Source: Pseudomonadota bacterium (GTDB lineage: Bacteria; Pseudomonadota; Alphaproteobacteria; Rhodospirillales; Magnetospirillaceae). From it: a DNA stretch of 34,994 nt. The stretch spans positions 1-34,994 of the forward strand of contig JAKAFA010000003.1 of the NCBI GenBank assembly GCA_021818185.1, in the 5' to 3' direction. The position numbers were made by a program, and so were the translations under genes. The notes below the pieces were generated by a model that saw only the letters and a program-made list of their open reading frames with translations, was not told the DNA's origin and did not search any database. Of this stretch, positions 668 through 15,945 are shown in pieces. Every line of letters starts with the position of its first letter. Within the stretch, counting starts at the first letter, position 1.

Positions 668-3600
668 ATGAACCTGGTTTCCCCCCTCTGCGTGAACCCT
701 CTCGCCGGAGGTTTCCACCCGGACCTTCTGCGCGACGAGCTGCTGCCGGAACTCTTCGCCGCAACGGCGGTCCGCAGTCCCGCCCGCACCGCCCTGGTGT
801 TCGGGGAGCGACGATTGTCCTACGGCGCGCTGGCCTCGGCCGCCTGGCGGGTGGCCAATGCCCTGCGGGCCCGCGGCATCGGCCGCGGGGCGTTCGTCGG
901 GCTGTGGATGGAACGTTCCGCCGACCTGCACGTCGCCCTGCTGGGTATCCTGGCCGCCGGGGCGGCCTACATCCCCTTCGACGCCGACGCCCCGCGCGAG
1001 CGGGTGGCCGCCTGCCTGGCCGATTGCGCCGCCGCCGCCATCCTGGTGGACGACAGCACCCTGGCGCGGGCCGGCGACCTGCCGGCCGCGCCCCTGCGTC
1101 CGGCCGAACTGGCCGCCATTTCCGACCGTGCCCCCGACCTGCGCGCCGAGGGCGCCAGCCCGTCCGACCCGGCCTACGCCATCTACACCTCGGGCTCCAC
1201 CGGCCAGCCCAAGGCGGTGGTGATCAGCCACCGCAACATCTGCCACTATCTGCGGGCGGCCAACGACATCTTTTGCCTGGTGCCCGAGGACGTGGTGTTC
1301 CAGGGCGCCTCGGTGGCCTTCGACCTGTCGCTGGAGGAGATTTTCCTCCCCTATCTGGCGGGGGCGACCCTGTGGGTGGCCGGGCGCGAGGTGTTGCAGG
1401 CGACCGACCGGTTGTGCGACGTGCTGGACGGGGCGGGGATTACCGTCCTCGATACGGTGCCGACCCTGCTGACCCTGTTGCCGCGCGACGTCCCCTCGCT
1501 GCGGGTGGTCATCCTGGGCGGCGAGGCCTGCCCGCCGGCGGTGATGGACCGCTGGTGCCGGCCGGGGCGGCGGCTGTTCAATTCCTATGGCCCCACCGAG
1601 ACCACCGTGGTCGCCACCGTCGCCGAGCTGCTGCCGGGCCAGCCGGTCACCATCGGCCGGCCCATCGCCAACATGACCTGCTTCGTGGTGGACGACCAGT
1701 TGCGCCCGGTGCCGGTCGGCACCGAGGGCGAACTGCTGATCGGCGGTCCGGGCGTCGCCGCCGGCTATCTGGGCCGCCCCGAACTGACGGCGCAGAAGTT
1801 CATCCCCAATCCCTTTCCGGCCAGCGGCCTCGACCCGGTGCTCTACCGCTCGGGCGACGCGGTCAGCGTCGATGCCGAGGGGCGCCTGCATTTCCATGGC
1901 CGCATCGACGATCAGGTGAAGATTCGCGGCTTCCGCATCGAACTGGGCGAGATCGAGGCCAAGCTGTCCGACCTTCCGGGCGTCGCCCAGCCGGCGGTGG
2001 TGTTGCGCAACGACGACGGCGCCGACCGCCTGGTGGCTTTCGTGGTGCCGGCTGCCGGGGCGGGAATCGATGCCGCCGCGCTGCGCGCCGCCCTGGGCCG
2101 GCAATTGCCCGCCTATATGGTGCCCTCGCGGTTCGAGGTGGTGGCGGCGCTGCCCCGCCTGTCCTCGGGCAAGGTGGACCGCAAGGCGCTGCGGGCGGTG
2201 CCGCTGGCCGCCGCTCCCGCCGAAGCCGAGGAGGAGCCGTCCGGCGCCACCGAGGCCGCGCTGCTGGCCGCCGCCAAGCGGGTGTTCCCCGGCCAGTCCA
2301 TTCCGCTGGAAGGCGATTTCTTCCTGGACCTGGGCGGCCATTCGCTGCTCGCCGCCCGTTTCGTGTCGGCGGTGCGCGAGACCCCCGCCCTCGATTCCCT
2401 GACCCTCCAGGACGTCTATGCCGTCCGCACTCTGCGGGCCATGGCCCAGGTGCTGGACGACCGCGCCGCCGAGGCGCCGCAGGACCGCGCCCGCGACCTG
2501 GGCTTCACGCCGCCGCCGCTACTGCGCCGCTTCCTGTGCGGCCTGGCCCAGGCTGCGGTTCTGCCGGTGCTGCTGGGTCTGGCCACCGCACCCTGGCTGG
2601 GGGTGTTCGTCAGCTACATGCTGCTGTCGGGCGACGATGCCACCTTCTGGGGCGAGGTCGTCAGCCTGCTGGCCACCTACGGCGTGATCAACGTCGGCAG
2701 CGTGGTGCTGGCCATCGCCCTGAAATGGCTGGTGATCGGCCGCACCAAGCCCGGCCGCTACAAGCTGTGGGGGACCTATTATTTCCGCTGGTGGCTGGTG
2801 CAGCGGGTGCTGGGCCTGGTGCACATCAAATGGTTCCAGGACAGCCCGATCATGCGGATCTACCTGCGCCTGCTGGGGGCCAAGGTCGGCCATGACGCGG
2901 TGATCGGCGAGGTGGAATCGGGAGCCTTCGATCTGGTGGAGATCGGGGCCGGCGCCACCGTCAGCAGCCGGGTGCGCCTGGCCAACGCCGAAGTGATCGG
3001 CGACGAACTGGTGATCGGGTGCATTTCCATCGGCGAATGGGTGGGCATCGGCAATTCGGCGGTGGTCGGCCACGGCTGCGTCCTGGGCGAGGGGGCCGAG
3101 GTCGAAGACCTGACCGCGCTGGCGCCCCATACCCAGGTCGGCGCCTACGAGCGTTGGGACGGTTCGCCCGGCCGGTTGGCCGGCCGGGTGGATGCCGCCG
3201 ATCTGCCCCAGGCGGCGCAGGCCGGCTGGGGCCGCAAGATGGCGATCGGCCTAGCCACCGGCGTGGCGCTGCTGGTCCTGCCCCCCATCAGCCTGATCCC
3301 CATCCTTCCCGCCTTCACCCTGTTCGACAAGCTTTCGGACATCATCGGCCGCTTCGTGCCGGTGAATTACCTTGATTACCTGCCGGCGGTGGCCTGGCCG
3401 ACCGCCATGGTGATGATCGCCGTCACCGTGCTGCTGATCGCCGGCTTCCGCTGGCTGCTGCTGCCCAGCGTCAAGCCCGGCACCTATTCCATCCATTCGG
3501 GCTTCTACCTGCGCAAATGGCTGGTTTCGCTGCTGACCGAACTGGCGCTGGAAACCCTGTCCTCGCTCTATGCCACGGTCTATATGCGGGCGTGGTACCG

Positions 3601-4750
3601 GCTGATGGGGGCGCGGATCGGCAAGGACGCAGAAATCTCCACCAATCTGTCGGGCCGCTACGACCTGATCGAGATCGGCGAAAAAAGCTTCATCGCCGAC
3701 GAGGTGGTGCTGGGGGACGAGGTCATCCGGCGGGGATGGATGATCCTGGAACCGGTCCGCACCGGCCCGCGGGTGTTCGTCGGCAACGAAGCGGTAGTCC
3801 CGCCGGGAGCGGAAATTCCCGCCGACGTGCTGATCGGCATCAAGTCCAAACCGCCGGCCAATGCCGACATGGCGGGCGGCGGGACGTGGTTCGGCAGCCC
3901 GCCCATCAAGCTGCCGGTGCGCCAGCAATTCACCGGCGTCGGGGCCAACTGGACCTATGAGCCGCCGCGCTGGCGCCGCCTGGCCCGCGCCGTGTTCGAA
4001 GCCTTCTCGGTGTCGCTGCCGACCATGCTGTTCATCACCTTCGGCACGCTGGCGGTCGAATGGCTGGCGCCCGCCATCCTGGCCGGCAATTACTGGCTGG
4101 CCCTGCCGCAATTCCTGGCGGCCAGCGTGGCGATCTCGGTGGCGCTGGTCCTGTCCTCGGCGGCGGTCAAGTGGCTGATGATGGGGATCTACCGCCCGAC
4201 CATGAAGCCGATGTGGTCGTGGTGGGCGCTGCGCACCGAGGCGGTGGCGGTGATGTATTGGGGCATGGCCGGCAAGGTGCTGCTGGATCATCTGCGCGGC
4301 ACCCCGTTCCTGCCCTGGGTGTTGCGCCTGTTCGGCACCCGCTTCGGTGAAGGCGTGTACATGGACACCACCGACATCACCGAATTCGACTGCGTGTCGG
4401 TCGGCAGCTTCGCCGCCATCAATACCGGTGCCGCCTTGCAGACCCACCTCTACGAGGATCGCCTGATGAAGGTCGGCCGGGTGAAGGTCGGCAAAGGGGT
4501 GACGGTGGGCAGTTCGGCCACCGTGCTTTACGATACCCGTGTCGGCGATTTCGCCCGGGTCGGCCCGCTGACCATCGTGATGAAGGGCGAGGAACTGCCG
4601 CCGCATACCTCGTGGCAGGGGGCTCCCGCCCAGGCGGTGGCCGAGGCCGCCCCAGCCGCCTCCGTCGCTGCCGGGCGCCGTCCGCAGCAGGCGGCCGGAT
4701 CGGCCGGACGCCTGGTCGCGCCCTTTCATGAGCCGGAGCGGAGCGCCTGA
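668..4750 (+). CDS. Pls/PosA-type single-module nonribosomal peptide synthetase (A-T-membrane C-terminal domain)
   Basis: The 1360-aa product has an adenylation domain (about 30-510) with its core motifs: TSGSTGQPK near 175, YGPTET at 307-312, GRIDDQVKIRGFRIELGE near 411-428 and SSGK with Lys502. A carrier domain follows (DLGGHSLL, phosphopantetheine Ser559). There is no condensation or thioesterase domain. Instead a roughly 750-residue C-terminal region carries six hydrophobic segments in three pairs (about 620-690, 858-935, 1120-1180), each pair followed by a hexapeptide-rich soluble part. This architecture and length match the epsilon-poly-L-lysine synthetase (Pls/PosA) family, whose membrane-embedded tandem domains join one amino acid into a homopolymer. 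The ten pocket residues read D-L-E-D-I-G-S-V-V-K, suggesting a basic amino acid. ATG 668 has GGAG 4 bases upstream. Family is clear; product is inferred. Confidence 0.9.
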   Translation: MNLVSPLCVNPLAGGFHPDLLRDELLPELFAATAVRSPARTALVFGERRLSYGALASAAWRVANALRARGIGRGAFVGLWMERSADLHVALLGILAAGAAYIPFDADAPRERVAACLADCAAAAILVDDSTLARAGDLPAAPLRPAELAAISDRAPDLRAEGASPSDPAYAIYTSGSTGQPKAVVISHRNICHYLRAANDIFCLVPEDVVFQGASVAFDLSLEEIFLPYLAGATLWVAGREVLQATDRLCDVLDGAGITVLDTVPTLLTLLPRDVPSLRVVILGGEACPPAVMDRWCRPGRRLFNSYGPTETTVVATVAELLPGQPVTIGRPIANMTCFVVDDQLRPVPVGTEGELLIGGPGVAAGYLGRPELTAQKFIPNPFPASGLDPVLYRSGDAVSVDAEGRLHFHGRIDDQVKIRGFRIELGEIEAKLSDLPGVAQPAVVLRNDDGADRLVAFVVPAAGAGIDAAALRAALGRQLPAYMVPSRFEVVAALPRLSSGKVDRKALRAVPLAAAPAEAEEEPSGATEAALLAAAKRVFPGQSIPLEGDFFLDLGGHSLLAARFVSAVRETPALDSLTLQDVYAVRTLRAMAQVLDDRAAEAPQDRARDLGFTPPPLLRRFLCGLAQAAVLPVLLGLATAPWLGVFVSYMLLSGDDATFWGEVVSLLATYGVINVGSVVLAIALKWLVIGRTKPGRYKLWGTYYFRWWLVQRVLGLVHIKWFQDSPIMRIYLRLLGAKVGHDAVIGEVESGAFDLVEIGAGATVSSRVRLANAEVIGDELVIGCISIGEWVGIGNSAVVGHGCVLGEGAEVEDLTALAPHTQVGAYERWDGSPGRLAGRVDAADLPQAAQAGWGRKMAIGLATGVALLVLPPISLIPILPAFTLFDKLSDIIGRFVPVNYLDYLPAVAWPTAMVMIAVTVLLIAGFRWLLLPSVKPGTYSIHSGFYLRKWLVSLLTELALETLSSLYATVYMRAWYRLMGARIGKDAEISTNLSGRYDLIEIGEKSFIADEVVLGDEVIRRGWMILEPVRTGPRVFVGNEAVVPPGAEIPADVLIGIKSKPPANADMAGGGTWFGSPPIKLPVRQQFTGVGANWTYEPPRWRRLARAVFEAFSVSLPTMLFITFGTLAVEWLAPAILAGNYWLALPQFLAASVAISVALVLSSAAVKWLMMGIYRPTMKPMWSWWALRTEAVAVMYWGMAGKVLLDHLRGTPFLPWVLRLFGTRFGEGVYMDTTDITEFDCVSVGSFAAINTGAALQTHLYEDRLMKVGRVKVGKGVTVGSSATVLYDTRVGDFARVGPLTIVMKGEELPPHTSWQGAPAQAVAEAAPAASVAAGRRPQQAAGSAGRLVAPFHEPERSA

Positions 4751-4763
4751 GGGCGGGGGCGAG

Positions 4764-4787
4764 CGGCGGCACCCGGGCGTGCCGCCG
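4764..4787. terminator. Hairpin between convergent genes, likely two-way terminator
   Basis: CGGCGGCAC at 4764-4772 pairs perfectly with GTGCCGCCG at 4779-4787 around a 6-base loop. It starts 13 bases after the synthetase stop and lies 8 bases from the stop of the convergent radical SAM gene, the position expected for a shared terminator. There is no clear T-run on either side. Confidence 0.6.
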
Positions 4788-4795
4788 GTTGAGCC

Positions 4796-6265
4796 TTACG
4801 GCGTGTGAATGTAAAGGCTTTCGCGGTCCGGCTGGCGGGGCGGCGGCGGGGCCGGCACCTGATACCGCACGGGCCGCCGGTGGTCGGCCATGAGCGTCTC
4901 GGCGTTGTAGAGGCGATTGAACTGCCACACCATGCGCACGAAGTTGGTTTGGCCGTGTATCAGGCGGTCGGCCGCCAGGCGCGCCAGTTCCGCCGCCGCG
5001 CCCCAGCCCCAGTGCTTGCGGGCCAACACCCGCTGGGTGGCGACCAGTTCGGCATAGAAGCGCTCCAGGGGCAGGCGGGTCGGCAGCACGGCGTGCTGGA
5101 TGTCGAACAGGCGGTAGTCGCGGGTGGTCAGGCGGTAGCCGTCGGCATGCCAGCTTTCAGTGCCGGGATAGGGGGTGTTGACGCTGATATTGACGATTTC
5201 CGGCACTTCCAGGCACCATTGCCGCACCACGGCGAAGCGCCGCTCATCCCAGTCTGGGTCGGCGATGATGTTGACGGCGACCTGCAGGCCCAGGTCGCGG
5301 GCAAATTGCAGGGCCTCGAAGTTGCGGCCGAGCGGGATGCGTTTGCGGAATTTGCCCAGGCCCTCATCGTCGATGGCCTCCAGTCCGATGAACAGATATT
5401 GCAGCCCCAGGCGCCGCCACAGGCGAAAGACCTCGCGATTCTTCAGCAGCACATCGCTGCGGGTTTCCATGTAGTATTTTTTCCGGATGCCGCGTCTGGC
5501 CACCAGTTCGCCGATGGCCATTCCGTGCGGCTCGCGGATGAAGGCGACGTCGTCCACCAGGAAGACCCCAGGCTCGCGGATGGCAGCCAGTTCCGCGGCG
5601 GCCACCTCCGGGGTCACCAGCCGGTAGCTGCGGCCGTAGAAGGTCCAGGCGCTACAGAACGAGCAATCCCACGGGCAACCGCGCGAGAATTCCATGGAGG
5701 CCGCCGGGTCGAGCTGGCCGATGAAATAGCGCCGGCGGTGACGTAACAGGTCGCGGGCCGGCCGGCAGGCGTCCAGGTCGGCGGCGAAGGCCGGCGGCGG
5801 GCCGGCGCCATCGGGCGTGACCGCTCCGGGAACCTTCCGCAGGGCGTCGCCGCCGCCCGCCGCCACCGCGTCGAGCACCGGCACGATGCCGGCCTCGCCC
5901 TCGCCGCGCAGGACGCAGGCGATGGCGCCCTCGGCCTGCCGCAAAATGTCCTCGGCGGCGAAAGAGACGCTATGCCCGCCCACCACCACGGTCAGGCCGG
6001 GATGGCGGGCGACCGCGGCGCGCGCCAGATCGATCACTTCGGGGACGTTGGCCAGGTAGTTGCAGGAGATCGCCATCACCTCGGGTCGCCAATCCCGCAC
6101 GACGCGCAGGACGGCGCCCGGCTTCTCCACCTGGAGATCGACCAGACGCACCCGATGACCTGCGGCGCGCGCCGCGGCGGCGACGCATTCCAACCCCAGC
6201 GGTTCCAGGCGGAGAAAAACCTTGGTATACATCAGCGGTCCGGGATGGACGGCCAGAACCTTCAT
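4796..6265 (-). CDS. hpnR: B12-binding radical SAM protein, probable hopanoid C-3 methylase HpnR
   Basis: The 489-aa protein has an N-terminal cobalamin-binding Rossmann domain (about 1-150; it begins MKVLAVHPGPLMYTKVFLRL and contains VVVGGHS) followed by a radical SAM core with the [4Fe-4S] motif CPWDCSFC (CxxxCxxC) near residue 197. From memory, the start, the RGCPWDCSFCSAWTFYGRSY block and the late NISVNTPYPGTESW stretch match HpnR, which methylates C-3 of hopanoids using SAM and methylcobalamin. HpnP (C-2 methylase) and other class B radical SAM enzymes are the alternatives. ATG 6265 is preceded by a strong AGGAGG; the frame continues upstream to 6361 without such a site. No other hopanoid gene is visible nearby, so this would be a stand-alone tailoring gene. 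bluB at 21.6 kb belongs to the pathway that supplies its cofactor. Confidence 0.75.
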   Translation of the reverse strand: MKVLAVHPGPLMYTKVFLRLEPLGLECVAAAARAAGHRVRLVDLQVEKPGAVLRVVRDWRPEVMAISCNYLANVPEVIDLARAAVARHPGLTVVVGGHSVSFAAEDILRQAEGAIACVLRGEGEAGIVPVLDAVAAGGGDALRKVPGAVTPDGAGPPPAFAADLDACRPARDLLRHRRRYFIGQLDPAASMEFSRGCPWDCSFCSAWTFYGRSYRLVTPEVAAAELAAIREPGVFLVDDVAFIREPHGMAIGELVARRGIRKKYYMETRSDVLLKNREVFRLWRRLGLQYLFIGLEAIDDEGLGKFRKRIPLGRNFEALQFARDLGLQVAVNIIADPDWDERRFAVVRQWCLEVPEIVNISVNTPYPGTESWHADGYRLTTRDYRLFDIQHAVLPTRLPLERFYAELVATQRVLARKHWGWGAAAELARLAADRLIHGQTNFVRMVWQFNRLYNAETLMADHRRPVRYQVPAPPPPRQPDRESLYIHTP

Positions 6266-6394
6266 ACCCACCTCCTCCTGCCTCGGCGTCCGCCGGCTTG
6301 GCGCCGCCGTGGAGATGGGGATGGCCGCTGCCCGCGGCAGGGGGAGGTGCGCCATCGGCACCGTGCTTCGCCATCCGGCGGATGCCTCTTGACG

Positions 6395-6929: not shown

Positions 6930-7730
6930 TCAGCTCTCCTTTTTGCGCGCCAGCAGCCGGGTCGCCGCCAGGATGATCACCGCCACCGCGGCGACGATCA
7001 GGGTTCCCAGCGCATTGATCTCGGGCGATACCCCCAGCCGCACGCTGGAAAACACCGCGATGGGCAGCGTGGTGGTGCCGGGGCCGGTGACGAATTGCGA
7101 GACCACCACGTCGTCGATCGACAGGGTGAAGGCCAGCAGCCAGCCCCCGGCCAGGGCCGGGGCGATCAGCGGCAGGGTGATGACGGCGAATACCTTGAGG
7201 GGGCGGGCCCCCAGGTCCAGCGCCGCCTCCTCCAACGAGCGGTCCATCTGCGCCAGGCGCGACCGCACCACCACGGTGACGTAGGCCGTCGCCAGGGTGG
7301 TATGGGCGATCACCACGGTCAGGAAGCCGCGCCCCGCCGGCCAGCCGAAGGTCTGCTCCAGCGCCACGAAGGTGAGCAACAGGGCCAGGCCCATGATCAC
7401 TTCGGGCATCACCAGCGGCGCCGCCACCAGGGCCGAGAACAGCGCGCGCCCGCGGAACCGTCCGAATCGTACCAGCGCCACCGCCGCCAGGGTGCCGATG
7501 ACCAAAGCCGCGCTGGCGCTGGTCACCGCCACGCGCAGCGACAGCCAGCCGGCGTCCAGGAAGCGCTGGTCGTGGGCCAGTTCGACATACCACTTGGTCG
7601 AAATCCCCCCCCAGACCGTGACCAGGCGCGACGCATTGAAGGAATAGATCACCAGCACCACGATGGGCAGGTACAGGAAAGTGTAGCCCAGGGCCAGCAG
7701 GGTGGGCAGCAGCAGCGGGCGGCGGGTCAT
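6930..7730 (-). CDS. potI: Putrescine/polyamine ABC transporter permease PotI
   Basis: This 266-aa inner-membrane protein has six predicted hydrophobic segments and the cytoplasmic EAA loop (EEAALDLGARPLKVFAVITL, about residues 167-186) through which binding-protein-dependent permeases contact their ATPase. Its sequence follows the PotC/PotI type, including SIDDVVVSQFVTGPG near the C-terminus. It is the last gene of the minus-strand unit potG-potH-potI, and its start ATG overlaps the potH stop by 4 bases (ATGA), indicating translational coupling. It would pair with PotH as the channel heterodimer. Substrate is inferred from the nearby PotF and PuuA-like genes. Confidence 0.92.
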   Translation of the reverse strand: MTRRPLLLPTLLALGYTFLYLPIVVLVIYSFNASRLVTVWGGISTKWYVELAHDQRFLDAGWLSLRVAVTSASAALVIGTLAAVALVRFGRFRGRALFSALVAAPLVMPEVIMGLALLLTFVALEQTFGWPAGRGFLTVVIAHTTLATAYVTVVVRSRLAQMDRSLEEAALDLGARPLKVFAVITLPLIAPALAGGWLLAFTLSIDDVVVSQFVTGPGTTTLPIAVFSSVRLGVSPEINALGTLIVAAVAVIILAATRLLARKKES

Positions 7731-8665
7731 TTGCCATCCTCCGCCGGCTCCATCCGGCTCTGGAAGCGGCTGAGCAGGGCGAGCGGCAGCACCAGCGCCG
7801 CCAGCATCGCCACCGCCAGGGCCGAGGCGGTGGGCCAGTCGCGGCTCATGGCGAACACGTCCCACAGGGCCTTGCCCAGCATGTTGGTCTCGCCGCCGCC
7901 CAGCAGGTCGGGAATGACGTATTCGCCCACCGCCGGAATGAACACCACCAGGGTGCCGGCGACGATGCCGGGCAGCGAGAGGGGAAGGGTGACCGACAGA
8001 AAGGCCCGCCAGGGCCGCGCGCCCAGATCGGCCGCCGCCTCCAGCAGGGCCGGGTCCTGGCGTTCCAGGGTGGCGTAGAGCGGCAGGATCATGAAGGGCA
8101 GGTAGGAATAGACAATGCCGATATAGATGGCGATGTCGGTGTTCAGGATGACGAGGGGGTGGTGGATCACCCCCAGCCACTGTAGCAGACTGTTGAGCAG
8201 CCCCTCGTCCTTCAGGATGCCCATCCAGGCGTAGACGCGGATCAGGAAAGAAGTCCAGAACGGCAGGATCACCAGCATCAGCAGCGGCCCGCGCCGGTTG
8301 GGTGCCGCCCGGGCGATGCCCAGGGCCATGGGATAGCCGATCAGCAGGCACAGCAGGGTCGAGATGCCGGCGATCTTCAAGGATTCCAGATAGGCGCCGA
8401 CATACAGCTCGTCCTGGAACAGCAGGGAAAAGGTGCTGAGATCGGCGTGGATGGAAGGCCACAGGTGGCCGCCGCTCCAATCGAAGACCGGCACGTAGGG
8501 CGGAATGCCGACCCGGGGGGTCGCGAGGCTGATGGTGGCGACGATGAGGAAGGGGACCAGGAAGAAGGCCAGCAGCCAGGCGAACGGCAGCGCCAGCACG
8601 ACGCGCCGCCCCCACGCGCCCCGCCCCGCCCCGCCCCGGTTGCGGGCGATGGCCGGCGCCTTCAC
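7727..8665 (-). CDS. potH: Putrescine/polyamine ABC transporter permease PotH
   Basis: The 312-aa permease has a basic cytoplasmic N-terminus, six hydrophobic segments, and an EAA loop (LLEAAADLGARPWRAFLSVT, about 214-233). The block FIPAVGEYVIPDLLGGGETNMLG is typical of PotB/PotH. The start is a GTG at 8665 that overlaps the potG stop by 4 bases (GTGA), and its own stop overlaps the potI start in the same way, so the three genes form a tightly coupled operon with fixed stoichiometry. It forms the membrane channel with PotI. Confidence 0.92.
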   Translation of the reverse strand: MKAPAIARNRGGAGRGAWGRRVVLALPFAWLLAFFLVPFLIVATISLATPRVGIPPYVPVFDWSGGHLWPSIHADLSTFSLLFQDELYVGAYLESLKIAGISTLLCLLIGYPMALGIARAAPNRRGPLLMLVILPFWTSFLIRVYAWMGILKDEGLLNSLLQWLGVIHHPLVILNTDIAIYIGIVYSYLPFMILPLYATLERQDPALLEAAADLGARPWRAFLSVTLPLSLPGIVAGTLVVFIPAVGEYVIPDLLGGGETNMLGKALWDVFAMSRDWPTASALAVAMLAALVLPLALLSRFQSRMEPAEDGK

Positions 8666-9759
8666 GGCAACACCACCGCGTTGCCGGGATGCCAGGACAG
8701 GTAGACCCGGTCGCCACGCCCCACCGCCGGCTCGGCCGCATGGCGCAGATTGGCGGCGGTAACCAGCACCAGCCGCCCCGAGGCCAGTCGCACCCGGTAG
8801 GACGAGACATCGCCGTGATAGCCGATCTCGGTCACTTCGCCGGCCAGAACGTTGCTACCGCCGGCCGGCGCCTCGCGGCCCATGGCGATCTTTTCGGGGC
8901 GGACCATCAGCGCCACCGCGGCCCCGTTGGTCGGGGCGCCCAGCGCTTCCAGCGGCCGTTCAAGTCCCTCGACATGGATGCCGTCGGCGGCGGCGACGCC
9001 CTCGAACATGTTGGCGGTGCCGATGAAATCGGCGACGAAGCGGTCGGCGGGATATTCATAGATGTCGTGGGGGCGGCCGACTTGCAGGATGCGTCCGGCG
9101 CTCATCACCGCGATGCGGCTCGACATGCCCATCGCCTCTTCCTGGTCGTGGGTGACCATGACGAAGGTGATGCCCACCTGGTTCTGGATGCGCACCAGCT
9201 CGAACTGGGTCGATTCCCGCAGCTTCTTGTCCAGGGCGGCCAGCGGCTCGTCCAGCAGAACGACGCGCGGCTGCTTGACCAGGCAGCGCGCCAGGGCGAC
9301 GCGCTGCCGCTGGCCGCCCGACAATTGGTGTGGCCGCCTTCCGCCGAAGCCGCCCAGCTTCACCAGATCCAGCATGGCGTCGACCCGCGCTTTGATCTCG
9401 GCCTTGGGCACGCCGTCCTGCTTCAGGCCGAACGCGACGTTGTCGGCCACGCTCATATGGGGGAACAGGGCGTAGGAATGGAACATCATGTTGACGGGGC
9501 GCGCATAGGCCGGGACCTGCGTCATGTCCTGGCCGCCGATCAGGATCCGCCCGTCGGTCGGTGTCTCCAGCCCCGCCAGCATGCGCAGCAGGGTGGTCTT
9601 GCCGCAGCCCGATGGGCCCAGCAGCGAAAAGAATTCGCCCTCGGCGATGTCCAGGTCCACCCCGGCTACGGCGTCCACCGGCCCGAACCGCTTGCGGATC
9701 GCCTGGAAGCGGATCGCCGGATCGCGCTTGCCGATCACCTCGTCCCCGACCGCCTTCAC
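8662..9759 (-). CDS. potG: Putrescine/polyamine ABC transporter ATP-binding protein PotG
   Basis: The 365-aa ATPase shows Walker A GPSGCGKTT (about 49-57), the ABC signature LSGGQRQRVALAR, Walker B VVLLDEPLAALD and the switch His in MVTHDQEEA, then a C-terminal TOBE-type regulatory domain (about 285-365). Length and order match PotA/PotG ATPases, which power polyamine import. The start is GTG 9759 with GGAGG 5 bases upstream. It opens the potGHI operon; the binding protein gene potF is not next to it but 3.6 kb away, beyond the divergent GGDEF-EAL gene. Confidence 0.93.
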   Translation of the reverse strand: MKAVGDEVIGKRDPAIRFQAIRKRFGPVDAVAGVDLDIAEGEFFSLLGPSGCGKTTLLRMLAGLETPTDGRILIGGQDMTQVPAYARPVNMMFHSYALFPHMSVADNVAFGLKQDGVPKAEIKARVDAMLDLVKLGGFGGRRPHQLSGGQRQRVALARCLVKQPRVVLLDEPLAALDKKLRESTQFELVRIQNQVGITFVMVTHDQEEAMGMSSRIAVMSAGRILQVGRPHDIYEYPADRFVADFIGTANMFEGVAAADGIHVEGLERPLEALGAPTNGAAVALMVRPEKIAMGREAPAGGSNVLAGEVTEIGYHGDVSSYRVRLASGRLVLVTAANLRHAAEPAVGRGDRVYLSWHPGNAVVLP

Positions 9760-9868
9760 CCCGTCCTCCCGACACCACCCGCCAGTCGCTTTCCCCTACA
9801 CGGCTGCGAACGTCGATGCAAGATGCGGGCTGCCCGAACCGGCGGGATTATTCGCCGGAAACGCACTC

Positions 9869-9897
9869 TTGCCGCGTCATTGCAAAAGGTATATCCT
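9869..9897 (+). promoter_or_regulatory. Possible housekeeping promoter of the GGDEF-EAL gene
   Basis: TTGCCG (9869-9874) and TATCCT (9892-9897) are separated by 17 bases, each matching the sigma-70 consensus at 4 of 6 positions, in the 199-bp region divergent between potG and the GGDEF-EAL gene. Transcription would begin about 55 bases before the ATG at 9959. The match is moderate and no experimental support is available. Confidence 0.35.
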
Positions 9898-9958
9898 CAT
9901 CCCCCGTTTAGGGGTCCCGCGCCTGCGGTGCGGGTGCGCGGCTGGCGTGAGGAAGAGT

Positions 9959-12900
9959 ATGGACGATTGCAGAGTGGCGAAAGTGAGGTTTCGCGCCACC
10001 GAATCGCTTTTTCGCCAGTTGCTTCGCACCGCCAGCGACGGAATTCATATCCTCGACGTCCGCGGCAACTTGGTGTTGGCCAGCGATTCCTTTTACCGCA
10101 TGTTGGGATACGATCCGGTCGATCCCCCGCCGCTCACCGTGACCGACTGGGACCCCCGGGCGCGGGAGGACGAGGTTCAGGCGATCTTGGCGCGCGACAC
10201 CGCGGAGACCAAAACCTTCCGCACCCGGCATAGCCGGTCCGACGGCACCATCTTCGACGCCGAAATCAATGCGCGCAGTGTCGAGCTGGATGGCGAGCGG
10301 TTCATCTATGCCTCGTCGCGCGACATCACCGCCCGCGTACAGGCCGAGGAGCGTGCCGCCCGCGACCTCGCGGTGACCACCGCTCTTCGGCACGTCCTGC
10401 GCCTGTCGCTGGCTGACCTGGATCTGCGTGACATTCTGCTGGCCGCCCTTGACGAATTGCTGGCGCTGCCATGGCTGCATGTGGAGAATCGCGGCAGCAT
10501 CTTCCTGATGGAGGAGGACGGAAGCAGCCTGGTGATGGCGGCCCGGCGCAACATGGAAGCCGAATGCACGGCCGGCTGCGGGCGGATCGCGGTGGGGCAA
10601 TGCCTGTGCGGCCGCGCCGCGCTGGGGCGGGTGGTCTTCAAGGATTCCATCGATGACGAGCACGAGATCCGCTCGGCGGCCATGGTCGAGCACGGCCATT
10701 ACTGCGTCCCCATCGATCACGCCGGCACGGTGCTGGGGGTGCTCAACATCCATGTCGCCCACGGTCACCGCCACGATGAGGAGGAGCAGCGTGTCCTGGT
10801 CATGTTCGCCGACACGCTGGCGGGGATCGTGGCGCGCAAGCGCGCCGAGGCGGCGCTGCGCAGCACCCTGGCCGAACTGACCCATCACCGCCTGCACCTG
10901 GAAGACCTGGTGCGGCAGCGCACCGAGGAGGTGGCGGCGCGCGAGGCGCGGCTGCGCGAGGTGTTGGACCTCAATGCCGACATCCTGGCCACCTCGGCGG
11001 CAGGGATCGCGGTCTACCATCGGGACGGGCGTTGCGTGCAGGTCAATCCCGCTTTCGCCGCTACCATCGGGGGCAGCGAGGCCCAGATTCTGGCACAGAA
11101 CCTCCACCACCTGCCGTCGTGGCGCGAAGCCGGCCTGCTGGATCTGGCCAAGGGCGTGCTGGGCAGCGGCAAGGCGGCGGCGCGGCAGATCCGGCTGCAT
11201 ACCACCTTCGGCCGCCAGCTTTGGCTGGATTGCCAGTTGTCGCGCCTGATCCGCGACGGCGTGCCGCACCTGCTGCTGATGTTCCGCGATGTGACCGCCG
11301 AACGGCAGGCCTCCGAGGCGCTGGAAGAACGGGAGCGCCTGCTGCGCACCCTGGCCGACAACGTGCCTGACCACATCGTCCGCTGCGACCGCGACGGCCA
11401 TGTCCTGTACGTCAACCGGGCGGTGGAACTGGGATCGGGCCGTCCGGCCGCCGACCTGATAGGGCGTACCGCCGCGGAGAACTACCCCGATGGGCGCTTC
11501 GCCGCGCTCGACCGGGCGATGCGGGGGGTCGCGGCCACCGGCAAAGCCGCCGATTTCGACTTGACCGTTCCGGGTCCAAACGGCAGGGCTATCTATCATC
11601 AGGTGCGGATCGTGCCCGAGCCCGGCCCCGATGGCCGGCCGGCGAGCGTGATGGCGGTGGGGCGCGACCTCACCCGCCAGCGCCGCGCCGAAGAGCAGCT
11701 GCGCCTGGCCGCCAGCGTGTTCCAGTCCTCGTCCGAGGGATTGCTGGTGACCGATGCCGAGGGCACCATCATCTCGGTCAACCCGGCCTTCACCGACATC
11801 ACCGGCTACAGCGCCGCCGAAGCGCTGGGCCACACGCCGCGGCTGCTGCGTTCGGACCGCCATCCGCCCGAATTCTATCGCGCCATGTGGGAGACGCTGA
11901 CCACCGCCGGTCTGTGGCAGGGCGAGATCTGGAACCGCCGCAAGAGCGGCGAGGCCTATCTGGAATGGCTGACCATCAACCGGATCGACGATGATGCCGG
12001 CCGGCCGGTGCATTACGCCTCGGTGTTCCACGACATCACCGAATCGCGACGCAAGGACGAACGCATCCAGCATCTGGCCTTCCACGACGCCCTGACCGGG
12101 CTGCCCAACCGTGCCCTGCTGATGGACCGGCTGCAACACGCCCTGGCCCGCGCCCGGCGCGAGGGCCGGCGACTGTCGGTAACCTTCGTCGATCTCGACC
12201 GGTTCAAGGCGATCAACGACAGCCTGGGCCACGACGTGGGCGACCTGCTGCTGCAGGAGGTGGCGCAGCGCATCTGCGGGCGGCTGCGCGCCATGGACAC
12301 GGTGGCGCGCATGGGCGGCGACGAGTTCGTGGTGATGATGGAGGATTTGGCCGAGATCGAGGATTGCGCGATCCTGGCCGCGCAACTGATCGCTGCCATC
12401 GCCCGGCCGATGGACCTGCGCGGCCACCGGGTCGAAGTGGGCGCCTCGATGGGCATCGCCTTCTTTCCCGAGGACGGCGACGATCCCCTGACCCTGATGA
12501 AGAACGCCGACATGGCGATGTACGCGGCCAAGGCGGCGGGCCGCAACACCTATCGCTTTTTCCAGGCCGAGATGCAGGACCAGGCCGTCCGCCGCCTGGA
12601 TACCGAAATGGACCTGCGCACCGCCATCGCGCAGGGCGGACTGGAACTGCATTACCAGCCGAAGGTGGATTTGGCCGACGGCAAGGTGCGGGGCGTGGAA
12701 GCGCTGGTGCGCTGGCACCACCCGGTGCGCGGGCTGCTGTCCCCGGCCGAGTTCGTCCCGCTGGCCGAGGAAAGCAGCCTGATCCTCGACCTCGGCAACT
12801 GGGTCCTGGACCAGGCCTGCCGGCAGGCTGCCGCCTGGCAGGCCAACGGCCTGAATCTGCGCATCGCCATCAACGTGTCGGCCAAGCAGCTCGATGCCGG

Positions 12901-13363
12901 CGATCTGGCCGAGCGGGTCGCCGAGGCCACGTCGCGCCATGGGGTCTCGCCCTCCCGGCTGGAGCTGGAACTGACGGAAAGCGCGGTGATGGCCAATCCG
13001 GCCCATGCCGCCGGGCTGTTCGCCCGCCTGCGGCAGTTGGGGATCACCATCGCGGTCGACGATTTCGGCACCGGCTATTCCAGCCTGGCCTATCTGCGCC
13101 GCCTGCCCATCGACGTGCTGAAGATCGACCGCTCATTCGTGGCGGATGCCGACACCAACGGCGACGACGCCCAGATCGTCAAGACCATCCTGGCCCTGGG
13201 CCAGACGCTGAAGCTGACGGTCGTGGCCGAAGGGATCGAAACCCAGCAGCAGGCGGAGGTTCTCGGCTCGGTGGGCTGCACGCTGGCCCAGGGATTCCAC
13301 TTTGCGCGGCCGTTGCCGGCCCACGAAGTGGAATCGTGGCTGCGGGAACGGGGCTCGGCCTGA
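9959..13363 (+). CDS. PAS-GAF-PAS3 GGDEF-EAL protein (c-di-GMP turnover)
   Basis: This 1134-aa protein has no signal peptide or membrane segment. Domains in order: PAS (about 10-125), GAF (140-300), a short coiled coil, PAS (338-455), PAS (455-580), PAS (582-700), GGDEF (705-865) and EAL (880-1130). The cyclase motif GGDEF is intact at 786-790 with an inhibitory RxxD site (RAMD) five residues before it. The EAL motif is at 914-916, and the later metal and catalytic motifs (ELTES, DDFGTGYSS, LKIDRSF, AEGIE) are all present, so both making and breaking c-di-GMP are possible. The GAF domain has four close cysteines (203, 207, 215, 217), suggesting a redox or metal input. ATG 9959 follows GAGGAAGAG. 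The gene lies opposite to, and splits, the polyamine transport genes. Confidence 0.93.
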   Translation: MDDCRVAKVRFRATESLFRQLLRTASDGIHILDVRGNLVLASDSFYRMLGYDPVDPPPLTVTDWDPRAREDEVQAILARDTAETKTFRTRHSRSDGTIFDAEINARSVELDGERFIYASSRDITARVQAEERAARDLAVTTALRHVLRLSLADLDLRDILLAALDELLALPWLHVENRGSIFLMEEDGSSLVMAARRNMEAECTAGCGRIAVGQCLCGRAALGRVVFKDSIDDEHEIRSAAMVEHGHYCVPIDHAGTVLGVLNIHVAHGHRHDEEEQRVLVMFADTLAGIVARKRAEAALRSTLAELTHHRLHLEDLVRQRTEEVAAREARLREVLDLNADILATSAAGIAVYHRDGRCVQVNPAFAATIGGSEAQILAQNLHHLPSWREAGLLDLAKGVLGSGKAAARQIRLHTTFGRQLWLDCQLSRLIRDGVPHLLLMFRDVTAERQASEALEERERLLRTLADNVPDHIVRCDRDGHVLYVNRAVELGSGRPAADLIGRTAAENYPDGRFAALDRAMRGVAATGKAADFDLTVPGPNGRAIYHQVRIVPEPGPDGRPASVMAVGRDLTRQRRAEEQLRLAASVFQSSSEGLLVTDAEGTIISVNPAFTDITGYSAAEALGHTPRLLRSDRHPPEFYRAMWETLTTAGLWQGEIWNRRKSGEAYLEWLTINRIDDDAGRPVHYASVFHDITESRRKDERIQHLAFHDALTGLPNRALLMDRLQHALARARREGRRLSVTFVDLDRFKAINDSLGHDVGDLLLQEVAQRICGRLRAMDTVARMGGDEFVVMMEDLAEIEDCAILAAQLIAAIARPMDLRGHRVEVGASMGIAFFPEDGDDPLTLMKNADMAMYAAKAAGRNTYRFFQAEMQDQAVRRLDTEMDLRTAIAQGGLELHYQPKVDLADGKVRGVEALVRWHHPVRGLLSPAEFVPLAEESSLILDLGNWVLDQACRQAAAWQANGLNLRIAINVSAKQLDAGDLAERVAEATSRHGVSPSRLELELTESAVMANPAHAAGLFARLRQLGITIAVDDFGTGYSSLAYLRRLPIDVLKIDRSFVADADTNGDDAQIVKTILALGQTLKLTVVAEGIETQQQAEVLGSVGCTLAQGFHFARPLPAHEVESWLRERGSA

Positions 13364-13383: not shown

Positions 13384-14502
13384 CTAATCCTCCTTGGCGG
13401 TGCGGAACCGGGTCCAGGCACGGGTGCGCAGGCGGTCGAAACCGGGCGGCGCCGGGGGCAGGGCCGAGAACAGGTGCGCCTTGACGTCGGCGGGGGGATA
13501 GATCACCGGGTCGGACTTGATGGCCGGCTGCACGTATTGCAGCGACGCCGGAACGGCGTTGGCATAGCCGACCTGATTGGTGACGTCGGCGATGACGTCG
13601 GGGCGCAGCAGGAAGTTGATGAAGGCGTAGGCGGCGTCGGGGTGGGGGGCGTCGGTGGGAATGGCCATCACGTCGATGTTCACCATGGCGCCCTCCTTGG
13701 GAATGACGATGGCGATGTTGGGCCGGTCGGCGGCCTTGGATTCGCGGGCGCGGTTGCGCACCTGCACCAGGTCGCCGACATAGCCGTGCGACAGGCAGAC
13801 ATCGCCGCCGGCCAGGTCGCTGCGGTATTTGTCGCTGTTGAGGTAGCGGTAATTCGATCGCAGCGGCATCAGCGCCTTCATGGCGGTCTGCAAGGCGGCA
13901 GGAGTCTGTTCCAGCGGATCGTGGCCGAGATAGGCGAGTATCGCCGGAATGACCTCGGTGGGGGTATCCAGCAGGGTCACGCCGCAGGATTTGAATTTCG
14001 AAACCACGGCGGGGTCGAACAGCATCCGCCAGGAATTCACCGGCGCGTCGGGCATCAGCTTCTTGATGGCATCGACGTTGTAGCCCAGGCCGGTGGCCGA
14101 CATCAGATAGGGCAGGCCGTGGGCGTTGCCGGGATCGACCTTGGCCAGGCTGTTCATCACCTGGGGATCCAGGCCCTTGGCATTGGGGATCTTCGACAGG
14201 TCCAGCGGGCGGTAGATCCCCGCCTTGAGTTGCTGGGCGAAAAACGGCGTGGCCGATGGAAAGACCACGTCATAGCCCGACTGGCCGGTCATCAGCTTGG
14301 CGTCGAGGATCTCGTTGTCGCTGTAGGTGTCGTAATGGACCTTGATGCCGGTTTCGCGCGTGAACCTGTCCAGCGTGTCCTTGCCGATGTAATCGGACCA
14401 ATTGTAGACGTTCAGCACTTTGTCGTCGTCGGCCCGCGCGGCGGTGGCGGCCAACAGGACCAGGGCCGCCGCGGCAAGGCGGGCGAGCAGGCGGACGGAC
14501 AT
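13384..14502 (-). CDS. potF: Periplasmic polyamine-binding protein PotF
   Basis: The 372-aa product begins with a signal peptide (MSVRLLARLAAAALVLLAAT, cleavage likely after ARA) and continues with LNVYNWSDYIGKDTLDRF and GYDVVFPSATPF, which are hallmarks of PotD/PotF solute-binding proteins. It would deliver putrescine or a related polyamine to PotHI/PotG. ATG 14502 is preferred, with ACGGGGGTG just upstream; a GTG at 14508 would add two residues. It ends 20 bases from the convergent GGDEF-EAL gene. Upstream on the same strand, about 100 bases away, is the PuuA-like gene, so the two could be co-transcribed. Confidence 0.92.
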   Translation of the reverse strand: MSVRLLARLAAAALVLLAATAARADDDKVLNVYNWSDYIGKDTLDRFTRETGIKVHYDTYSDNEILDAKLMTGQSGYDVVFPSATPFFAQQLKAGIYRPLDLSKIPNAKGLDPQVMNSLAKVDPGNAHGLPYLMSATGLGYNVDAIKKLMPDAPVNSWRMLFDPAVVSKFKSCGVTLLDTPTEVIPAILAYLGHDPLEQTPAALQTAMKALMPLRSNYRYLNSDKYRSDLAGGDVCLSHGYVGDLVQVRNRARESKAADRPNIAIVIPKEGAMVNIDVMAIPTDAPHPDAAYAFINFLLRPDVIADVTNQVGYANAVPASLQYVQPAIKSDPVIYPPADVKAHLFSALPPAPPGFDRLRTRAWTRFRTAKED

Positions 14503-14604
14503 CGGCACCCCCGTAAATCGTACGGCAAATCGAATAAGGCTGGGCGATATTCCGTTGGGCGCCGGCCGGAGTCAATTGTCCGCCCGCCGGCTTTCCTCGG
14601 CGTG

Positions 14605-15945
14605 TCAGACGTTGAGCAGGAGGTATTCCCGTTCCCAACTCGACACCACCCGCTGATAGGCGTCCCATTCCGCCTCCTTGACCGCCATGTAGGCCTCGCA
14701 GAACGCCTCGCCCAGCAGCTCGCGCAGGGCCTTGGCCGCCTTCAGTTTTTCCAGGGCGTCGGGCAGGTGGCGGGGCAGGGAATGGGCGCGGGTATAGCCC
14801 GAGCCGTCCACCGGGCTGCCGGGGTCGAGCTTCTGCTGGATGCCCAGCCAGCCGCAGGCCAGCGACCCGGCGATGGCCAGGTAGGGATTGGCGTCGGCCC
14901 CGGCTAGGCGGTTTTCCACCCGGCGCGACGGCGCCGCCGATTCCGGCACCCGCAGCCCGACGGTGCGGTTGTCGCGCCCCCAATGGACGTTGATCGGGGC
15001 GTCAAAATCCGGCACCAGCCGGCGATAGGAATTGACGTTGGGGGCGAACAGCAGCATGGCGGCCGGCAGATACTTGCGCAGGCCGCCGATGAACCAGCGG
15101 AACATCTCGGTGTCGGCGCCGGCCTCGGTGGCGAACAGGTTGCGCCCCGTCGCCGCATCCACCAGGTTCTGGTGGATGTGCATGGCGCTGCCCGGTTCGT
15201 TCTGCATCGGCTTGGCCATGAAGGTGGCGTAGACCGAGTGGCGCAGCGCCACCTGGCGGACCAGCCGCTTGAACAGAAAGGCCTGGTCGGCCAGTTCCAA
15301 GGCCTCGCCGTGGTCGAAATTGACTTCCATCTGGGCGTTGCCGGCCTCGTGCGACAGGGTGTCGACGTCGAGCCGCTGGGCGTCGCACACCGCGTAGACC
15401 TGATCGAACAGCGGGTCGAATTCGTTGACCGCGTCCACGCCATAGGCCGGCCGGCCGGTCTCGGCCCGCCCCGACCGCCCGATGGGCGGCTCCAGGGGGT
15501 AGTCGCTGTCGGTGTTGGGCTTGACCAGGAAGAATTCCAGCTCGGGCGCCACCACCGGTTTCCAGCCCTTGCCGCGATAGAGTTCGAGCACCCGTTTCAG
15601 CACCTGGCGCGGGGCCATGCCCACCGGCTTGCCGTCCAGGTACAGGCAGTCGGAGATTACGCAGGCGGTCGGTTCGTCGTACCAGGGCACCAGCCGCATG
15701 GTCTCGGGGTCGGGGGCCAGGGTGATGTCGCCGTTGGCCACCGAGGTGACATCCTCTTCGGGATAGTCGCCGGTCACCGTCTGCACGAAGATGCTTTCCG
15801 GCAGCCGCAGACCGCGGGTTTCGGCGATGGACACGAATTTGTGGGCGGGGACGATCTTGCCGCGGGCCACCCCGGACATGTCGGGCACCAGGCATTCCAC
15901 CTCGCTGATGCCGCGCGATTTGATCCATTCGGCGAAATAGGACAT
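14605..15945 (-). CDS. puuA: Glutamine synthetase family protein, probable gamma-glutamylputrescine synthetase
   Basis: The 446-aa protein has the glutamine synthetase fold: a beta-grasp N-terminus (about 15-110) and a catalytic domain with metal and substrate residues in APELEFF, GNAQMEVNFDHGEAL, SAMHIHQN and ENRLAGADANPYLA. It has the length of PuuA-type enzymes, which join glutamate to putrescine with ATP as the first step of putrescine breakdown, and it lies next to potF, which supports that role. Related enzymes act on spermine, ethanolamine or other amines, so the exact amine is open. ATG 15945 has GAGG 7 bases upstream. No puuB, puuC or puuD is seen in the window, so the rest of the pathway would have to be elsewhere. 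Confidence 0.85.
   Translation of the reverse strand: MSYFAEWIKSRGISEVECLVPDMSGVARGKIVPAHKFVSIAETRGLRLPESIFVQTVTGDYPEEDVTSVANGDITLAPDPETMRLVPWYDEPTACVISDCLYLDGKPVGMAPRQVLKRVLELYRGKGWKPVVAPELEFFLVKPNTDSDYPLEPPIGRSGRAETGRPAYGVDAVNEFDPLFDQVYAVCDAQRLDVDTLSHEAGNAQMEVNFDHGEALELADQAFLFKRLVRQVALRHSVYATFMAKPMQNEPGSAMHIHQNLVDAATGRNLFATEAGADTEMFRWFIGGLRKYLPAAMLLFAPNVNSYRRLVPDFDAPINVHWGRDNRTVGLRVPESAAPSRRVENRLAGADANPYLAIAGSLACGWLGIQQKLDPGSPVDGSGYTRAHSLPRHLPDALEKLKAAKALRELLGEAFCEAYMAVKEAEWDAYQRVVSSWEREYLLLNV

Follow-up and report, generated by a model that had tools for sequence, protein, structure and literature searches.

Organization of the pls gene and its product

The stretch of DNA analyzed here, referred to as the window, is one whole contig of 34,994 bases (JAKAFA010000003.1) from an alphaproteobacterial draft assembly of 3.85 Mb in 362 contigs, about 95% complete. 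It encodes a large nonribosomal peptide synthetase (NRPS) of the Pls/PosA type, here called pls, with one adenylation (A) domain, one thiolation (T) domain and a membrane-embedded terminal domain. The features of this gene are as follows.

668..4750, + strand: pls/posA-type gene, 1360 residues, A-T plus membrane polymerization domain (open frame, TIGR02353, GGAG before ATG)
755..2173, + strand: adenylation domain, residues 30-502, pocket DLEDIGSVVK (Pfam, PosA alignment, AlphaFold2 model)
2288..2452, + strand: thiolation (carrier) domain, residues 541-595, phosphopantetheine Ser559 in LGGHSL (Pfam, conserved Ser)
2546..4630, + strand: NRPS terminal (polymerization) domain, three transmembrane helix pairs and three left-handed beta-helices (TIGR02353 over residues 627-1321, AlphaFold2, hydropathy)
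4439..4471, + strand: QTHLYEDRLMK motif, residues 1258-1268, third beta-helix, candidate catalytic or carrier-binding site (conservation)

The forward-strand open reading frame at 668-4750 has zero internal stops, and its ATG at 668 is preceded by GGAG at 660-663. Pfam places AMP-binding at residues 30-368, AMP-binding_C at 428-502 and PP-binding at 541-595, together with hexapeptide-type matches; the same scan of the protein reported neither a condensation (C) nor a thioesterase (TE) domain. The NCBIfam model TIGR02353, "Pls/PosA family non-ribosomal peptide synthetase", matches residues 627-1321 across profile positions 2-695 of 695 with 599.3 bits, the curated cutoff being 423.1 bits; such a score lies well beyond chance. 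Judged by its sequence, which combines this full-length score with a single A domain, a single T domain, six helices and an Asp/Glu pocket, the gene is a member of the Pls/PosA family, an enzyme family already known. A preliminary description, made by a model from the sequence alone, had arrived at the same family, domain order, length and missing C and TE domains; only its plural "A-T modules" has to be reduced to a single A-T module. Ser559 of the carrier domain is invariant across 104 alphaproteobacterial rows of the alignment.

Hydropathy peaks in the terminal domain fall into three pairs, at approximately residues 622-652 and 667-690, 862-880 and 914-932, and 1112-1138 and 1149-1167. The AlphaFold2 model of residues 606-1331 (predicted local distance difference test, pLDDT, 89.4; predicted template modeling score 0.89) agrees: it has three blocks of long helices, and after each comes a run of short strands resembling a left-handed beta-helix. 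The six membrane segments and three tandem hexapeptide-rich domains first described thus stand. A structure search with this domain returned only partial matches to the hexapeptide fold, the highest Z being 8.1 across about 140 residues, and found no solved full-length homolog, an absence that in itself proves nothing. The motif QTHL[FY]xDRxM (residues 1258-1267) is confined to the third beta-helix, being absent from the corresponding parts of the other two repeats, and all aligned family members, whether of lysine, ornithine or 2,4-diaminobutyrate (Dab) type, retain its Q, T, H, L, D, R and M. From its conservation, the motif is proposed as a condensation or carrier-docking site.

The adenylation pocket

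The ten residues of the specificity code are D219, L220, E223, D262, I282, G284, S306, V314, V315 and K502. All ten had been read correctly by eye; nine are recovered by ungapped alignment to PosA, the delta-poly-L-ornithine synthetase of Acinetobacter baumannii, and K502 lies in the motif SGKVDRK. This alignment, with the solved structure 8G97 as reference (its chain index renumbered by two residues to PosA numbering), is gapless over 220 residues of the A core, 120 of them identical (54.5%), whereas actinobacterial Lys-type enzymes show 44-49% identity over the same residues, 164-383. The best solved matches to the AlphaFold2 model of the A domain (pLDDT 86.5) are the four PosA structures, 8G95-8G98, with Z from 53.1 to 54.5 and root-mean-square deviations of 1.7-2.0 over 394-401 residues; the top match has Z 54.5 and a deviation of 1.7 over 396 residues, as against Z 47.4 for 7WEW, the epsilon-poly-L-lysine (epsilon-PL) synthetase of Streptomyces. 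Structural alignment had been put forward as the check on the pocket; with PosA as the best match the pocket stays basic, and no non-basic alternative was seen.

Asp217 and Glu221 of PosA are essential (PMC10522769, Patel and Gulick 2023). The corresponding D219 and E223, code positions 1 and 3, are invariant in the 104 aligned members with a readable residue, and these pocket residues make a basic diamino acid substrate well supported. Code position 2, Met218 in PosA, sets substrate length, being Phe in diaminopropionate (Dap) and Dab enzymes, Met in ornithine enzymes and Ala in lysine enzymes, and the M218A change in PosA raises kcat/KM for lysine nearly tenfold (PMC10522769). In the window enzyme this position is held by Leu220, close in size to the Met of PosA, in place of the Ala of lysine enzymes.

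By sequence, model and tree, the closest characterized neighbor of the window enzyme is PosA rather than epsilon-PL synthetase. PosA shares the A-T-terminal architecture, about 41% identity over the full length, the essential D and E of the pocket, the QTHL[FY]EDR motif, a Gram-negative host and a lack of coupled neighboring genes (PMC10522769, 8G95-8G98). The PosA code, DMEHNGTVSK, differs from DLEDIGSVVK at positions 2, 4, 5, 7 and 9, and the window enzyme lies in a separate clade; D, E, G, V and K are kept, the replacements of Met by Leu and Thr by Ser are conservative, and that of Ser by Val loses a contact, the Thr and the Ser of PosA both touching the delta-amine. The Streptomyces epsilon-PL synthetase also shares the architecture, and its code as read from 7WEW, DAESIGTVVK, equals that of the window at seven of ten positions, with Ala to Leu at position 2, Ser to Asp at position 4 and Thr to Ser at position 7; Lys-type homologs, however, show only about 26-29% identity to the window terminal domain and fall on the far side of the tree. 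The poly-Dab and poly-Dap synthetases of actinomycetes share the architecture and the QTHLFEDR motif, with about 34% identity in the terminal domain. Their Phe at position 2 is absent from the window enzyme, which has Leu220, just as the Ala-containing lysine code is replaced by Leu220, D262 and S306; the code of epsilon-poly-beta-lysine synthetase, DGESISVVNK, differs from that of the window as well, and the lysine 2,3-aminomutase gene that adjoins that synthetase has no counterpart beside the window pls.

Choice among candidate substrates and activities

We consider it about 75% probable that the window gene encodes a single membrane-bound protein that by itself synthesizes a cationic homopoly(amino acid) and that its substrate is basic, taking the two as one claim; the figure is not one for ornithine alone. 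In such a system an Sfp-type 4'-phosphopantetheinyl transferase encoded elsewhere would add phosphopantetheine to the T domain, the A domain would use ATP to activate a free basic diamino acid and load it there, as the activity of homologs suggests, and the C-terminal domain would link many such monomers by their side-chain amines, in the manner known for PosA and epsilon-PL synthetase. A short poly-basic isopeptide, as originally suggested, is thus a likely product. The substrate, chain length, export and role of this particular enzyme we infer; an antifungal or surface-related role is conjecture.

L-ornithine is the best single guess at the substrate, giving a short delta-poly-ornithine-like chain, although by our judgement, which is not a computed value, it falls a little short of even odds. 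Several observations weigh against the reading as a whole or against ornithine within it. No assayed Pls/PosA-family enzyme with Leu at position 2 was found in the literature searched. Ser313 of PosA contacts the ornithine amine, and S313A lowers kcat/KM about 183-fold (PMC10522769); its place is taken by Val315, as in lysine enzymes. D262 is a second acid, with no counterpart in PosA, that could suit another substrate, arginine included. The neighboring genes offer no clue to a product. The window's own genome yielded no Dab aminotransferase above cutoff, in contrast to a Streptomyces homolog with Phe at position 2 that has this gene next door, and this speaks for ornithine, although in a draft about 95% complete in 362 contigs the missing gene is a weak negative.

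The preliminary description had favored lysine, for which the same type of enzyme would make epsilon-poly-lysine. Positions 5, 6, 8, 9 and 10 (I, G, V, V, K) do match the epsilon-PL synthetase code, with Val at position 9 where PosA has Ser, but lysine is not the best guess because position 2, the setter of substrate length, holds Leu rather than Ala throughout the clade described below; the bacitracin lysine code departs from the window code at two positions, and this is one of them. Of the known codes, that of the bacitracin lysine module came closest to PosA's as well, yet PosA favors ornithine over lysine more than 160-fold (PMC10522769), so likeness to that code says little in favor of lysine. 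With similarity, model and tree all placing the enzyme beside PosA and away from epsilon-PL synthetases, lysine appears an unlikely substrate, and of the earlier assignment the basic diamino acid stands while the emphasis on lysine does not. A substrate of Dab or some basic amino acid as yet unreported for the family (arginine, a hydroxylated or a beta-diamino acid), with a polymer new to the lineage or to science, is favored by the clade-wide fixed code DLE[DS][ILV]G[ST]VVK, which equals no code quoted for a characterized member in PMC10522769, by the two acids, E223 and D262, among the pocket positions, and by a Bdellovibrionales homolog that prefers arginine (PMC10522769). Yet no dedicated precursor gene was found beside the window pls or among the annotated neighbors of its relatives, the own genome lacks the aminotransferase just mentioned, and the guanidine of arginine is a poor nucleophile for polymerization; such a substrate is a tentative possibility. 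Among single candidates we would rank lysine after ornithine, then, at slightly lower odds, some other basic amino acid (arginine or a modified diamino acid, for example), and then Dab, which is improbable; this order, too, is judgement.

A different activity for the terminal domain, in which it would not polymerize but would hand over a single activated amino acid to an acceptor in the membrane or at the surface (a lipid or glycan, for example), is suggested by its membrane embedding and by the hexapeptide acyltransferase fold of its soluble parts, a fold shared with enzymes that acylate small acceptors. We regard it as very improbable: characterized members of this architecture make homopolymers (PMC10522769), the entire terminal domain is conserved along with its invariant motif, no acceptor-pathway gene is linked in relatives, and hpnR, which adjoins pls in the window, lies beside pls in none of those searched. 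Synthesis of a basic homopolymer, with ornithine as the leading candidate for its monomer, remains the preferred reading.

Distribution and phylogeny

TIGR02353 scored above its cutoff in 21 of 61 genomes in a set made up of the window's own genome and its relatives, all 21 belonging to its own GTDB family (n = 37), in which carriers number 22 of 37 when one genome with the gene split across two contigs is counted. An even draw over the class gave 9 carriers among 289 genomes, and only Corynebacterium glutamicum exceeded the cutoff among 14 control genomes. Named relatives with the gene include many species of Azospirillum as well as Bosea, Chelatococcus, Enterovirga, Alsobacter, Devosia and others; copies on large plasmids occur in Azospirillum and in Rhizobium, including R. 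tropici CIAT 899.

The clade shares the pocket DLE[DS][ILV]G[ST]VVK. Positions 1-3 are D, L and E in 100 of the 100 members with a readable residue, positions 6, 8, 9 and 10 are G, V, V and K wherever readable, and variation is confined to positions 4 (D/S), 5 (I/L/V) and 7 (S/T). For the tree, the code columns were left out and a quick LG+G4 search was run, with support by the Shimodaira-Hasegawa-like approximate likelihood ratio test (SH-aLRT) and no bootstrap. The alphaproteobacterial clade is separate (support 100) and joins PosA (SH-aLRT 100) before any actinobacterial enzyme, with the caveat of long branches for PosA and a Sphingomonas row. Actinobacterial members of the tree have lysine-type (DAESIGTVVK) or Dab-type (DF...) codes, and the window enzyme falls outside the Lys-type group.

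The preliminary description had named actinomycetes as the producers in this family, but the family is no longer confined to them, nor is a Gram-negative, alphaproteobacterial member a novelty in kind. The characterized Pls/PosA polymers in PMC10522769 are all from actinomycetes except that of A. baumannii, and a near-identical code, DLEDIGTV(T/V/I)K, was named in 2023 for Archaea, Rhizobia and Methylobacterium, with no substrate given (PMC10522769). That code is the same as that of the window apart from Ser/Thr at position 7. Among the relatives found here, those of Rhizobium have DLEDIGTVVK, and Bosea shares DLEDLGTVVK with a Methylorubrum bin, while Ser at position 7 occurs in the window enzyme and Azospirillum; the window enzyme is about 52% identical to Rhizobium members. 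The branch of Azospirillum, Bosea and the window therefore extends a pocket group already recorded, the presence of the family in Gram-negatives being likewise published.

No substrate assignment for the DLED code group was found in the literature beyond the mention in PMC10522769. Alphaproteobacteria of soil and rhizosphere, among them the plant-growth promoter Azospirillum and the nodule-forming Rhizobium tropici, make up a whole clade with one fixed pocket, such that a substrate for the window enzyme would assign the whole clade and test the published rule for side-chain length at position 2. It is a speculative and rather unlikely prospect that Azospirillum, Bosea, Rhizobium, Chelatococcus and the other plant and soil bacteria of this clade build a cationic polymer from an amino acid new to the family, as a stable chromosomal trait and not from a mobile antibiotic cluster.

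Gene neighborhood

In the window, pls sits between an unannotated open reading frame and hpnR. The neighboring features are as follows.

4796-6361, - strand: HpnR, hopanoid C-3 methylase (829 bits against a cutoff of 650), convergent with pls
6930-9759 and 13384-15945, - strand: putrescine ABC transporter (PotI, PotH, PotG, PotF-like) and a gene resembling GlnA/gamma-glutamylputrescine synthetase
9524-13363, + strand: PAS-GGDEF-EAL protein of 1279 residues, divergent, splitting the putrescine gene set

Other genes in the window include GGDEF-EAL proteins, rnd and aspS, and no dedicated diamino-acid gene was found there. Between the stops of pls and hpnR, at 4764-4787, a perfect 9-bp inverted repeat, CGGCGGCAC/GTGCCGCCG, with a 6-base loop and no T run, is perhaps a shared bidirectional terminator. 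A functional link of pls with hpnR or the putrescine genes was considered and rejected: none of the 10 relatives from the family or the roughly 85 further loci showed a conserved hpnR, putrescine permease or binding-protein gene beside pls, and the few matches to potG and EAL proteins near relatives' pls genes are weak paralogs.

In Hyphomicrobiales (L055, L058, L091 and about 35 further loci), pls lies inside a conserved island of dnaJ, fabI, a histidine phosphatase gene, pls, aroC and ribB, a housekeeping setting that suggests long vertical inheritance; Bosea and its kin have pls flanked by the fabI/histidine-phosphatase gene and aroC-ribB, and in Azospirillum pls is followed by fumarate hydratase. 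Gene context was set aside as a clue to substrate, since neither the housekeeping island nor fumarate hydratase nor the window neighbors point to a precursor pathway. The gene behaves as a one-gene unit, and posA likewise lacks coupled neighboring genes (PMC10522769). A 4'-phosphopantetheinyl transferase gene lies directly 3' of pls in Rhizobium, in Sphingomonas and in bins labeled Devosia (L120 11951-12568, L123 9804-10361, L079 13977-14654, L112 9833-10417).

Two actinobacterial loci have neighbors of their own. On a plasmid of Streptomyces sp. NBC_01527 (L124 9032-11618), a Pls homolog with the code DFECLSAVTK, Phe at position 2, has directly after it the genes for a diaminobutyrate aminotransferase and for an aspartate kinase, an arrangement that makes a candidate poly-Dab operon. 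A lysine-type homolog in Kitasatospora (DAESIGTVVK) is followed by an M1-family metallopeptidase (L136 7933-9264), possibly an enzyme of polymer degradation or self-protection.

Activation and precursor genes elsewhere in the genome

The genome that contains the window encodes an Sfp-like phosphopantetheinyl transferase elsewhere, and the simplest substrate for the synthetase is a free primary metabolite, ornithine or lysine. The sole lysine-aminomutase-family protein of the genome is encoded on another contig, where inspection of the sequence places it beside an EpmA-like gene, and because of this neighbor a link with beta-lysine polymers was rejected. The EpmA-like gene (L132 270-1424, - strand) and an EpmB-like gene (1267-2448, + strand) stand head to head, a predicted pair pointing to beta-lysylation of elongation factor P.

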